From: Ginsengibacter hankyongi | Lineage (GTDB): Bacteria; Bacteroidota; Bacteroidia; Chitinophagales; Chitinophagaceae | Length of the DNA: 64,000 nucleotides | Reading direction: 5' to 3' | NCBI RefSeq assembly: GCF_008710285.1 | Contig: NZ_VYQF01000002.1 | Location: 124,001 to 188,000, forward strand | Shown here: positions 7,145-10,995 of the stretch, one piece after another | How the letters are laid out: the number at the start of each line of letters is the position of its first letter | Position numbering within the stretch: position 1 is the first letter of the stretch | Notes under the pieces: model-generated | The model's input: the letters and a program-made list of their open reading frames with translations, nothing else | Database searches by the model: none | Told to the model about the DNA's origin: nothing | Position numbers and translations under genes: made by a program

Positions 7145-7705
7145 TCAAAAATCTACGCCGGCTTTTAGCACAACTCTTCCATTTCCATATTTATAACTAC
7201 TGTAATCAACAGGGCACGGGCCAACCAGGCAAGGATTAACTACGCCCACTTTATTATTTATTTCTTTATAAGAAAATCCAGGGCTAAGAGTTAAATATGA
7301 TTTTCTCAACTTAATCTTATATCCTATTCCAAAATCTGTATATACTCCTCCACTAAAATGATAAGAGTTATAATATATTTCTTTACCAGGTTTATTTTTT
7401 CCACTAATATTATACCCCAAATCACCATATACAAAAGCATTATTCCTTTTGCCAAAATATATTCTCTGGTCAAAAAATAAAGGGTACGAATTATAATTAT
7501 AATCATCTTTGGCAAAGCCAATTCCGGAATAAACATTTTTATACGCAAATCCATTTACTGACTGTACCATCATATCTGTACCGCTTTCACCAATTACAAA
7601 CCCGATTGAGTTTATTGAATGAAATTTTGCTTTTTTATTTTGAGCTTTCACATAAAAACTCATCAATAATACCGGCAGTAAAAATATAAGTGATTTATTT
7701 CGCAT
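7145..7705 (-). CDS. Small outer-membrane barrel protein
   Basis: A 186-residue secreted protein of unknown function. Residues 1-21 form a signal peptide ending VKAQ. The rest alternates polar and hydrophobic residues with many aromatic positions (Tyr, Phe) and Gly turns, and ends in ...KAGVDF, the terminal Phe typical of outer-membrane barrels. An eight-stranded barrel fits the size. It begins 11 bases after the lipoprotein frame at 7717 and reads the same way, so it is probably the last gene of the operon driven by the promoter at 9005. A disulfide-prone pair (NPCLVGPC near residue 160) would sit in a surface loop. No family name can be assigned from sequence alone. Confidence 0.72.
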   Translation of the reverse strand: MRNKSLIFLLPVLLMSFYVKAQNKKAKFHSINSIGFVIGESGTDMMVQSVNGFAYKNVYSGIGFAKDDYNYNSYPLFFDQRIYFGKRNNAFVYGDLGYNISGKNKPGKEIYYNSYHFSGGVYTDFGIGYKIKLRKSYLTLSPGFSYKEINNKVGVVNPCLVGPCPVDYSSYKYGNGRVVLKAGVDF

Positions 7706-7716
7706 AAGCCTGTCAG

Positions 7717-8986
7717 TTAGTTTACAATATTTAGTTTACTTACCAGGTGAATATTATTTACATTGGAATAATCATACTGGTATAAGCCATCCTTTGCCAC
7801 CACCAGCGCTATTTTGTTCCATGCTATAACATCATAAGTTTCCAGCCCGGGAAATTGTTTCAGTAATTGCAAGTTTAGTATGTTGGAAACATCGTAAATT
7901 TTGAGTCCATCTGTTCCATCACATATAAATAAAAGATTTCCATCTTTTGACAAACCAAGCGGGCTGGTTAAATTGTAGGTTTTTACCAATTCAGCATTGG
8001 TAAGATTATTCAATTTTACAACATCAAGTTCATTATTATAACCAAGGCATGTAGTTCCCGAATGTAAGGTAACATAAGCGTAGTTATCATCTGTAATTAC
8101 AGGATCGCAGGAACGTGAATGGGTAAATTCTCCGACTTTTACCGGGTTTGAAGGTGAAGAATTGATATCATAAATAAACATTCCATTATTAGAGCCAACG
8201 AATAAATTATTTTTAAAAGGATAAATGGTTTCCACATGCCAGTCAACCTGCATTTGATTTGAAAATAGAGGATTGTTACCATTAGTAATATTGAAAACAC
8301 TTAAATCCTGGTCGCCTACGGTGTATAGGTAATTACCTACCAATGCAAATCTGGCCATTGAGCCACCCTGGCCGATCGCAGGAGACGGGCTACTCTTAAA
8401 AGCTTGAGATGCATCATTGGCCAGTGCGATTCCGGGTGTATAATATAGTATGCCGTAAGAAGCACAATCCTGTGTAACAGTTGTATCTCTTTTTGTCCAA
8501 TCAACAATTATTTTAGTGGAATCTGCGTAAAAGCCATTGCTATAAACTCTATACGGAAAAACTCCTTCGTTATATTTTTTTACAACGACGTGTAAGGGGT
8601 CCGTTATATCCAGAGTGACAAGGTCGGTATACAAATCTGCATAAAGTGTATTACCCTTTACAGCTATGTCTTCATTTCCGGGAATATCAATAAAAGCAAT
8701 ATTTTTAGGAGAAGAAGGATTACTGTTATCAATTATGTGTATTCCTTTATCCACTTCGTTTAAAAAAATATAGTTACCAAGCAAAAACAATTTTTCCTGG
8801 TTCCTGTATTTCTTTATCAGGATTACTTTTAATATTCGCTCTCACCTCGGCAGTTGTTTTATAAACCGGCAAATAGAGTGTATAGGAAAAAGCGTGTTTG
8901 CAGGTATCTTTCACACAACCGCTAAAAAAAATTATCGCCAGCAAAAAAATAACTAACCTGCTAATAATAAATAAATATTTTCTCAT
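7717..8986 (-). pseudogene. LVIVD-repeat lipoprotein, split by a 1-base frameshift
   Basis: Two consecutive frames encode one recognisable surface lipoprotein. The first (from ATG 8986) has a signal peptide with lipobox FSGC near residue 20 and the segment LPVYKTTAEVRANIKS. It then runs into a stop at 8774. The second frame, open from about 8790 to 7717, begins FLLGNYIFLNEVDKGIHIID and continues as LVIVD-type beta-propeller repeats. Removing one base from the five-base homopolymer at 8791-8795 joins them smoothly as EPGKLFLLGNYIF, the order I know from intact Bacteroidota relatives. It may be a real mutation, a phase-variable tract or a sequencing error. The TTG at 9013 is not the start because it lies in the promoter. 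Total length if repaired is about 422 residues. Confidence 0.8.
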
Positions 8987-9004
8987 GATGATGATTTTTT
9001 GAAT

Positions 9005-9036
9005 TGTTGACAACAGCCTTTTACAAAGCGTTGCAT
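9005..9036 (-). promoter_or_regulatory. ECF-type promoter of the LVIVD lipoprotein operon
   Basis: On the minus strand: ATGCAACG, 14 bases, GTTGTCAACA, then 18 bases to the ATG at 8986. The same two blocks with the same 14-base spacer stand upstream of the ECF sigma gene (10964-10995). The spacers differ in sequence, so the blocks look selected. By analogy with ECF promoters, TGCAAC would be the -35 and the TGTCAAC block the -10. Confidence 0.7.
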
Positions 9037-9045
9037 TTAATAATA

Positions 9046-10401
9046 TTATTTACTGAAATTTATTTCTGTATGCAACCCGGTAAATACGAAACGTTTTTTA
9101 TTGTACAATCCCTCATTGGCAATTTTAGATGCATCATAATAAAAATACGGGCCAATTAAAATTGAAGTTTTCTGTCTTGAATACAAAGACATAAGTATTG
9201 CTGTATTAAGCCCTACCTGGGTTTTATTTAATAATGAATTATCCTTGTAATAATAACCCGTAGTTGGACTAAATTGTAATGCATTGCTGTATATTAATTC
9301 CGAAAGTACCAACCCTCCTTGCAAGAACAACGGTATATTTTTCTCTTTCCCAATCTGTATTTTTATTGAGAACGGAACCTCAACAAAACTAAGATGATCA
9401 ATGAATTTATTTGTTGTCAATCTTGCACTATATCTACCGCTTGAATCATATAGTTTATTAGAAATATTGAAGGATTTAAAATTTATTCCTGAAACCAATT
9501 TTGCTTTTTTCGAGATATTTTTTTCGGCAAATACGCCAGCAATAAAACCAAAGCCGGATTTTGTTATTGACGATGAAAATGCGGATTGAGATCCTCCTGA
9601 ATTTAATGAACCGGGGCTGGAATAAACGGGTGGATTATTAAGCGCTAAAAAATCCTTTCCTACTCCTGATATCCCGCCTGAAAATAATATCCCAAACTTC
9701 CATTTATTTTTCTTTGATTGCTTTACAGTTGCAGTGTTAGCTTTTTTGTTCTTTAATGTATCGCTATCCTTTGTTGCAGCGTTCACAGCAACTGGCTTTG
9801 ACGAAGTAACACCGTTGATTTTTTCATGAACAGAATCTTTGAACTCGTTTTTCATCTTGTTTTCAACTTGTACATCAGAAGATTGTCCGGATATTATTCC
9901 AGATTCAATTTTCTCTTTAATCTTCGTTGCCACCTTCTTCTGTTTAAAGAATGCGATAGCAGTTTTTTCTTTTGAATTTCTTTTTGCATTTGCTTTCGAA
10001 TTCTTTAAAACTTTATAATAGTGTGTATTATTTTTATCGTTATCATTTTTTCCGGCAAGGTCTGCTGTCTGATTTTCTTTTTGATTAACAGGTCCGGGTA
10101 CAGAATTATTTTCTGGTTGAGCTTTTTCATTTTCCTTTCCTGAGGCTTGAGTAGTATTTTTTAAAGAAGCAGATGTAATAGACGTATGATTCCCCGAAAG
10201 CCTTTGCTGCATTGTATTCCAAAGCCAATAACCTCCGGATAAAACAAGGCCTGTAAATAAAAATAAAATGATCAACCCCCATTTACGATCTTTCTTTTTT
10301 TCAATTCGTACTTCAATTTTTTTCCAAACAGATTCGGACGGCTGAATTTTTAATTCATCCATTTTTTGTTGAACCTGTTTTTCAAATTTATTTTCTTCCA
10401 T
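9046..10401 (-). CDS. Predicted anti-sigma protein with C-terminal outer-membrane barrel domain
   Basis: A 451-residue protein whose start overlaps the sigma gene end by 14 bases, so the two are translationally linked. Residues 1-40 are charged and cytoplasmic by the positive-inside rule (KKKDRK just before the span), with a motif PSESVWKKIE. Residues 41-61 form one membrane span. Residues 62-231 are a Lys/Asn/Ser-rich low-complexity linker. From about 232 the sequence turns into alternating beta strands (KWKFGILFSGGISG onward), resembling the OMP_b-brl group. The sigma-binding role is inferred from position and topology. It lacks the zinc motif of ZAS anti-sigma factors. The linker is long enough to cross the periplasm, so one chain could touch both membranes. 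Confidence 0.75.
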   Translation of the reverse strand: MEENKFEKQVQQKMDELKIQPSESVWKKIEVRIEKKKDRKWGLIILFLFTGLVLSGGYWLWNTMQQRLSGNHTSITSASLKNTTQASGKENEKAQPENNSVPGPVNQKENQTADLAGKNDNDKNNTHYYKVLKNSKANAKRNSKEKTAIAFFKQKKVATKIKEKIESGIISGQSSDVQVENKMKNEFKDSVHEKINGVTSSKPVAVNAATKDSDTLKNKKANTATVKQSKKNKWKFGILFSGGISGVGKDFLALNNPPVYSSPGSLNSGGSQSAFSSSITKSGFGFIAGVFAEKNISKKAKLVSGINFKSFNISNKLYDSSGRYSARLTTNKFIDHLSFVEVPFSIKIQIGKEKNIPLFLQGGLVLSELIYSNALQFSPTTGYYYKDNSLLNKTQVGLNTAILMSLYSRQKTSILIGPYFYYDASKIANEGLYNKKRFVFTGLHTEINFSK

Positions 10402-10948
10402 ATCGCTCTTGTTGTTCTTTTAATGAAAATTTTTCAATCCATCCGATAAGTAAAGCCCGGGCACGTGCATATTGCGATCTTGATGTTCCGTCACTAATAC
10501 CAAGCATAGACGCAATTTCAACATGAGTATACCCTTCTACTGCATGAAGATTAAAAATTGTTTGAAAGCCCGTCGGCAATTGACGTATCAATTCTGATAA
10601 CTCTTTGGTTTGAAGCTGTATTACCGGATCGTTTACAGATACAGGATGCAAAGGCATTTCGCTAAACGAAAGATCATATTGATATTTCTTATTCGTCTTT
10701 AAAAAATTTAAAGCCGTATTTACCATAATTTTCCTGATCCATCCTCCTAATTCACCTTCAAATTTATAGCTGGATAAATGCTTAAACACTTTTACAAAAC
10801 CATCCTGCAAAACGTCTTCAGCATCAGCAATACTTTTTGTATAACGAAAACAAACGCCCAGCATCGCGGGTGCAAAATGCTCATACAATTGCCTCTGTGC
10901 ATCCGGAATGCCTTTAATACAATCTGTTACCAGCTTTCTATAATCCAT
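10388..10948 (-). CDS. ECF-family RNA polymerase sigma factor
   Basis: A 186-residue sigma-70 factor of the extracytoplasmic-function type. Region 2 includes the segment EDVLQDGFVKVF (about residues 45-57) and the promoter-melting part GGWIRKIMVNTALNFL. Region 4 has the helix-turn-helix HVEIASMLGISDGTSRSQ (about 145-162). Regions 1 and 3 are absent, as in all ECF factors. I take the ATG at 10948. The TTG at 10972 lies inside a promoter motif that is repeated upstream of the lipoprotein gene 2 kb downstream, which points to autoregulation. The next gene is its presumed regulator. The whole set resembles sigma-plus-barrel loci common in Chitinophagaceae. Confidence 0.92.
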   Translation of the reverse strand: MDYRKLVTDCIKGIPDAQRQLYEHFAPAMLGVCFRYTKSIADAEDVLQDGFVKVFKHLSSYKFEGELGGWIRKIMVNTALNFLKTNKKYQYDLSFSEMPLHPVSVNDPVIQLQTKELSELIRQLPTGFQTIFNLHAVEGYTHVEIASMLGISDGTSRSQYARARALLIGWIEKFSLKEQQERYGRK

Positions 10949-10963
10949 ATCTATATTACAGTT

Positions 10964-10995
10964 TGTTGACAACCCGTATTTGAATATCGTTGCAT
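10964..10995 (-). promoter_or_regulatory. ECF-type promoter of the sigma factor gene
   Basis: On the minus strand: ATGCAACG, 14 bases, GTTGTCAACA, then 15 bases to the ATG at 10948. It matches the element at 9005-9036 at every base of both blocks and in spacing. It supports autoregulation and rules out the TTG at 10972 as the start codon. Confidence 0.7.

Follow-up and report, generated by a model that had tools for sequence, protein, structure and literature searches.

Dma-type proteins, reportedly so named in a 2024 PNAS paper, are dual-membrane-spanning anti-sigma factors, and the locus analysed here encodes a candidate of this type beside the gene of an extracytoplasmic function (ECF) sigma factor. 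It lies in a 64,000-nucleotide (nt) stretch of the Ginsengibacter hankyongi genome (contig NZ_VYQF01000002.1, positions 124,001 to 188,000), hereafter called the window. According to the excerpts of the published accounts on which all comparisons below draw, the Dma family of Bacteroides thetaiotaomicron (Dma1/Das1 and Dma2/Das2) combines a sigma-binding N-terminus, a transmembrane helix, a disordered tether and a C-terminal barrel with an adjoining ECF sigma gene; the operon partners are BT_1555–BT_1557, the targets are nigD1 or polysaccharide utilization loci (PULs), and the phenotype of a dma2 deletion requires das2 (PMC13088901). An anti-sigma protein of Phocaeicola vulgatus was predicted to span the periplasm and end in an outer-membrane barrel, and its interruption switches genes on (PMC9308784); the corresponding genes there are inducible by the toxins BcpT and Bd-A (PMC9308784, PMC13114119). 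Reo, of the EcfO–Reo system of P. vulgatus and B. fragilis, is said to reach from the cytoplasm to the surface (five of five compartments) and was proposed to be an outer-membrane stress sensor (PMC13114119), with a regulon of NigD lipoprotein-type genes and a glycosyltransferase (PMC9308784, PMC13114119). Published Dma/Reo members govern their sigma and lipoprotein-type genes (PMC13088901, PMC9308784, PMC13114119).

Likened by architecture to the published description, the window protein shares with Dma the transmembrane helix, the disordered tether, the predicted barrel and the adjoining ECF sigma gene. In contrast to what those excerpts report, its partners are an LVIVD-repeat lipoprotein and a small barrel, and the lipoproteins predicted as its targets are diverse, in place of nigD1 or PULs. 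Like Reo, it would run as a chain from cytoplasm to surface, as predicted; the operon is a different one from that described for EcfO–Reo, and the two G. hankyongi target lipoproteins scanned in Pfam are not NigD. Judged by this analogy, the window protein is an example of the published Dma/Reo kind and its architecture is not new, so that the earlier note on this DNA, which knew of no study of the mechanism, was not right on this point (PMC13088901, PMC9308784, PMC13114119). Because the operon partners, the promoter motif and the predicted targets differ from the accounts excerpted, we treat the system as a distinct variant, and the predicted targets and the motif look new. The open-licence literature, a search that most subscription papers lay outside, yielded nothing on LVIVD proteins with a sigma factor, nothing on a Chitinophagaceae anti-sigma factor together with the outer membrane, and no account of the motif TGCAACG-N15-TTGTCA.

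In cell-surface signalling of the FecI–FecR–FecA type, a TonB-dependent receptor cooperates with an anti-sigma factor that is a separate protein. The window system has in common with it that an ECF sigma factor would be governed from the outer membrane, but here by one chain with an eight-strand barrel. We consider it probable that the locus encodes a Dma/Reo-type outer-membrane switch which drives its own operon and a set of lipoproteins, likely as an outer-membrane repair or remodelling response. The features are as follows.

10967..10994, minus strand: putative promoter P1, TGCAACG-N15-TTGTCA, exact in the window, ending 18 nt before the sigma ATG
10388..10948, minus strand: ECF sigma factor, 186 amino acids, partner of the Dma-type protein (Pfam and homology to relatives)
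9046..10401, minus strand: Dma-type dual-membrane-spanning anti-sigma candidate, 451 amino acids (PF13568, AlphaFold2, Foldseek and conserved head)
9008..9035, minus strand: putative promoter P2, TGCAACG-N15-TTGTCA, exact in the window, ending 21 nt before the LVIVD ATG
7717..8986, minus strand: LVIVD-repeat lipoprotein gene, frame-broken near 8790 (PF08309, signal-peptide piece and open frames in relatives)
7145..7705, minus strand: small protein, 186 amino acids, with a signal-peptide-like start and a predicted 8-stranded outer-membrane barrel (AlphaFold2 and Foldseek)

The sigma–Dma pair and the architecture of the Dma-type protein

Pfam identified Sigma70_r2 (4.6e-14) and Sigma70_r4_2 (4.2e-14) in the sigma factor, and among the NCBIfam matches listed the sigma70-ECF superfamily model alone scored above its cut-off. 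We placed the start at the ATG at 10948, where the list of open reading frames (ORFs) instead has a TTG at 10972. The protein is 56–78% identical to 15 relatives, every one of which adjoins a Dma-type gene. A protein-query search of 79 related genomes, G. hankyongi included, found the Dma-type protein in 23 and returned 30 loci, 27 of them distinct with the window's own counted (two weak match rows without a locus were left out); in all 27 a sigma gene lies just upstream on the same strand. A sigma-alignment scan of named genomes was used for its best 80 of 299 relatives, one of which has only 86 bases of DNA after sigma, leaving 79 readable loci, and a Dma-type partner adjoins sigma in every one of these. 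The titles of the best-80 loci are Chitinophagaceae genera, Chitinophagales or the broader names of metagenome-assembled genomes (Sphingobacteriales, Bacteroidetes), so the fractions describe this clade; named isolates with the pair include Niastella, Parafilimonas terrae and Puia dinghuensis (Chitinophagaceae). A phylum-wide search, scoring at most three candidates per genome, matched at least 82 of 395 genomes. A merely occasional adjacency of sigma is ruled out by these 27/27 and 79/79 loci. The earlier note described such ORFs as common beside sigma genes in Chitinophagaceae, and homologues lying mostly apart from a sigma gene were not what either search returned. It had also given a 14-base overlap of the two genes, which we located at 10388–10401; across the 79 relatives, with the start of each Dma-type gene placed at the methionine closest to the conserved head, the overlap is 14 nt in 67, 11 nt in 6, 20 nt in 5 and 17 nt in 1, and its retention in 67/79 loci suggests that the pair is translationally coupled.

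The 451-residue protein consists of a head (residues 1–40), a membrane span (about 42–62), a tether (about 67–233) and a predicted 8-strand barrel (234–451). Hydropathy showed one hydrophobic span from residue 42, behind a short polar head of some 40 residues; the tether of about 167 residues is of low complexity, rich in K/N/S/A/T, with a net charge of +16, and 218 residues follow it. Pfam placed PF13568 (outer membrane protein beta-barrel) on the C-terminal domain with 29.5 bits, just over the cut-off of 27. We modelled the protein with AlphaFold2, taking 66 of its 77 complete relatives as input, and obtained a mean predicted local distance difference test score (pLDDT) of 71 and a predicted TM-score (pTM) of 0.55. 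In the model the head forms two helices (4–16 and 23–69), the second continuing into the membrane helix; residues 71 to 230 have a mean pLDDT of 45–56 per ten residues, that is, the tether is disordered; and eight long strands span 235–449 with high confidence, the block-mean pLDDT of the barrel being 81–98 except in two loops (about 251–280 and 321–330) and the last residues. Consistently, all 23 solved structures that Foldseek matched with an E value of 0.001 or better were outer-membrane barrels, OmpA, OpcA, NspA and OmpW among them; OmpA matched at 1.0e-6, NspA at 5.0e-5 and OmpW at 6.2e-5, with target TM-scores of 0.46–0.64. At roughly 10% identity, and with target TM-scores of about 0.3–0.64 overall, this likeness is one of fold only and uninformative on function. 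A soluble C-terminal domain is ruled out by the eight-strand barrel and the Foldseek matches, the structure prediction proposed earlier for this domain having returned a barrel. Prediction thus supports one chain of head, membrane span, disordered tether and outer-membrane-type barrel. The head, single span, linker of about 170 residues and barrel-like end read earlier from the letters were borne out, and of the direct link between outer membrane and cytoplasm drawn from them, the architecture stands by prediction and the sigma adjacency by the 27/27 and 79/79 loci.

Five columns, M1, F6, E7, P21 and W26, are invariant in 67 aligned proteins (window included), and every one of them lies within the head. 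Neither Pfam nor NCBIfam gave a convincing match for the head, which leaves room for the reading that the Dma-type protein is an activator or co-factor whose head recruits or presents sigma, the barrel being merely an anchor. We regard this as highly improbable, since published proteins built in this way are genetic repressors of their sigma factor: the dma2 phenotype needs das2, and interrupting the P. vulgatus anti-sigma gene turns genes on (PMC13088901, PMC9308784). Short frames of about 240–270 amino acids with a head and a membrane span and no room for a barrel occur at L045, L055 and similar matches in other families of the class, and head similarity alone is therefore not to be taken as Dma.

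The tether in the 67 aligned sequences varies between 146 and 249 residues and is followed by 217–287 residues. A long unstructured segment of this kind would be easy to cut. Cleavage of the exported chain might leave the barrel as an ordinary small outer-membrane protein (OMP) working apart from the inner-membrane anti-sigma factor, the two being linked by synthesis rather than signalling. Locus L144 of the same genome (C1:1777000-1781000), which may be an unfused counterpart of this arrangement, fits this idea: a sigma gene is followed there by a 377-codon anti-sigma-like frame, in which a head-like segment is repeated, and by an OMP-like gene of its own. On the other hand, the chain is still long, 445–587 amino acids, in each of the 77 complete relatives (two more are cut by a contig end), and the shortest tether still has 146 residues with 217–287 after it, as bridging would need; we judge a chain that works in two pieces to be quite unlikely. 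Three further G. hankyongi sigma genes adjoin frames of 453–531 codons with a head, a membrane span, a low-complexity stretch and a C-terminal domain, and the organism may run several Dma-type channels.

L140, C12:422500-426500 of the G. hankyongi genome: sigma–Dma-like pair
L141, C23:219000-222300 of the G. hankyongi genome: sigma–Dma-like pair
L142, C1:1440500-1444300 of the G. hankyongi genome: sigma–Dma-like pair

The putative promoter motif and the downstream cassette

ECF promoters carry AAC near −35 and GTC near −10. The window has two exact copies of TGCAACG-N15-TTGTCAACAA, one before sigma and one before the LVIVD gene (the distances in the feature list run from the last A of TTGTCA), and by its letters the motif looks like an ECF-type promoter. 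We looked for a strict form, TGCAAC-N16-TTGTC, on both strands in 883,399 bases around the 79 loci and found 87 copies, 67 before sigma and 20 directly behind the stop codon of Dma (of which 18 precede LVIVD and 2 the OMP), with none found elsewhere in this DNA; five letter-shuffles gave 0–1 copies each. At the P1 position, 75 of the 79 relatives have the looser TGCAAC..GTC and the other four AGCAACG..TTGTCAAC. Outside the search pattern, the 75 also conserve a G after AAC (87%), a T before GTC (100%) and an A after it (99%).

The two genes after Dma are not described in the earlier note, whose range also spans 7717–8986 and 7145–7705, nor is the promoter. PF08309 matched the C-terminal piece of the LVIVD gene (2.8e-15), and the N-terminal piece has a signal peptide with the sequence FSGC, which we take to be lipobox-like. 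In the window the signal-peptide and propeller pieces lie in different frames (window 8700–8986), while the gene is unbroken in many related loci; the break could be a sequencing error or a real, recent loss, the two being indistinguishable here. The small 186-residue protein had no Pfam match at an E value of 1 or below, and AlphaFold2 modelled it as a barrel with a mean pLDDT of 89 that matched OmpW/OmpA in Foldseek. Sixty-seven loci extend 2.6 kb or more beyond Dma; of these, 53 have a homologue of this OMP and 48 the full cassette of sigma, Dma, LVIVD lipoprotein and small 8-strand barrel (LVIVD with OMP in 50/70 and 48/67 loci, L064 and L104 being scored as having LVIVD).

We also searched with an intact LVIVD protein, which matched in 34 of the 79 genomes, and re-read 17 wider regions. 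Five of them have sigma–Dma adjoining LVIVD (L178, L180, L184, L186 and L192), the other 12 having LVIVD with an OMP (8) or LVIVD alone (4). The OMP is divergent from an LVIVD–sigma–Dma array in L178, L180 and L184, from two other families, and L186, from a third, has LVIVD–sigma–Dma without an OMP; the Dma in these four is a candidate by its sequence. That LVIVD, sigma and Dma recur side by side in two gene orders speaks for a functional link among them. Of the rearranged, paralogous and LVIVD loci scanned, L176, L191 and the window's locus (L145) alone hold strict motif copies; a loose AGCAAC copy stands just before LVIVD in L190, and in L177 another loose copy falls within the LVIVD frame. 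With no copy in L140–L142 or in the four rearranged loci, the motif appears to be a property of this sigma clade.

LVIVD and the OMP might be neighbours by descent and not sigma targets, the second motif copy being a relic. In favour of this, P2 (as TGCAAC-N18-GTC after Dma) occurs in only 27 of the 53 relatives with LVIVD or OMP downstream, and the LVIVD–OMP loci L187–L189 have no motif. It is nevertheless very unlikely in our estimation: P2 occurs in none of the 14 loci without LVIVD and OMP, the motif precedes LVIVD-type and unrelated lipoprotein genes elsewhere, and three other families have LVIVD, sigma and Dma together in a different order, the OMP being present in two of the three.

Predicted target genes across genomes

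Genome-wide we used the exact form TGCAACG-N15-TTGTCA, with the reversed pattern as control. G. hankyongi has four such sites against none in the control, two at the sigma–Dma locus and the other two each before a small lipoprotein-like gene. Omitting the G after TGCAAC gave 5 exact sites against 1, and allowing up to one mismatch gave 12 against 10, which is the background level, so exact sites alone were used. L202, a single-mismatch site, likewise precedes a lipoprotein-like gene. Pfam was run on the two G. hankyongi lipoproteins, one fragment (L210) and one intact LVIVD protein; of the two lipoproteins, one is DUF6970 and the other is without a family.

Across the 79 genomes, G. hankyongi included, there are 61 exact sites against 4 in the control. 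A cassette-type sigma factor (at least 269 bits, the next paralogue scoring 211) is present in 22 genomes, and these contain 47 of the 61 sites. By a simple ad hoc rule, 21 of the 29 non-sigma ORFs after a site are lipoprotein-like, against a background of 109/815 that takes in the cassettes' own LVIVD genes; one of the 21 (L249) is the OMP of its locus, and 10 of the 47 sites in this test have no ORF within 100 nt. Classified by eye, the 61 sites comprise 16 before sigma, 7 before a cassette LVIVD gene, 2 before LVIVD-type genes elsewhere, 1 between OMP and LVIVD, 17 before other lipoprotein-like genes, 2 before other secreted proteins, 3 before glycosyl- or sugar-transferase-like genes and 13 with another gene or none within 100 nt. 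The LVIVD-type genes at L206/L191 and at L239/L253, the latter on a 4.3-kb contig, have no sigma–Dma in the available surroundings, and the L239 gene is in turn divided over two frames; the site between OMP and LVIVD (L176/L249) is in another family. The genes after sites L209, L246 and L247 are presumably glycosyl- or sugar-transferase-like by their sequence. Those at L209 and L247, from two genomes, are similar and both start ...FDCERMKYA.TGLYH..., and such a gene may be a second conserved target.

Several observations weigh against a switch that drives these genes. The link between sigma and the promoter is statistical, from position and co-occurrence. Of the 22 genomes with the cassette-type sigma factor, three lack an exact motif; 14 sites fall in 12 of the 57 genomes without it; and at 13 of the 61 sites an envelope-like gene, or any gene at all, is missing within 100 nt. 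Within the cassettes, P2 is found in about half of those with LVIVD or OMP and its strict form in 18 of the 53 LVIVD loci, 14 of the 67 loci have sigma–Dma with neither gene downstream, and the window's own LVIVD gene is frame-broken. The motif is also absent from L178, L180, L184 and L186, rearranged loci of other families in which sigma–Dma is present, from the same-family cassette L192 and from the same-family LVIVD–OMP loci L187–L189.

A model for the switch and its significance

In the model we favour, a Dma/Reo-type outer-membrane switch, the head of the 451-residue protein would hold the ECF sigma factor at the inner membrane, as in the published members, and the chain would cross the periplasm as a disordered tether to end as an 8-strand barrel in the outer membrane. 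At a contour length of 0.35 nm per residue, a 167-residue tether extends to near 58 nm, ample for the periplasm. A disturbance of the outer membrane or a failed barrel assembly would be relayed down the chain, perhaps by proteolysis or pulling, and free the sigma factor. Because barrels need the barrel assembly machine (BAM), the state of the barrel itself would be the most economical signal. Free sigma would then start transcription at TGCAACG-N15-TTGTCA, acting on its own operon (positive autoregulation), on LVIVD and the small barrel, and on mostly small lipoproteins elsewhere, an output that would differ from the NigD regulon of Bacteroidales. It is conceivable, and to us unlikely, that the LVIVD lipoprotein and the small barrel serve as sensory partners too. 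They would lie beside the Dma barrel in the outer membrane, and their arrival or non-arrival would report to the Dma protein on lipoprotein and barrel export, making the cassette a closed feedback loop that gauges outer-membrane assembly and drives the supply of lipoproteins.

The Dma/Reo work in the accounts excerpted here, which bears on the sensing of outer-membrane damage in Bacteroidota, has so far been on gut Bacteroidales. The Dma/Reo kind is now seen in Chitinophagaceae, tied to a sharply defined promoter motif, and this motif yields a testable list of targets, namely the operon itself, LVIVD–OMP and the small lipoproteins, from which a reporter for the triggering signal may be made.

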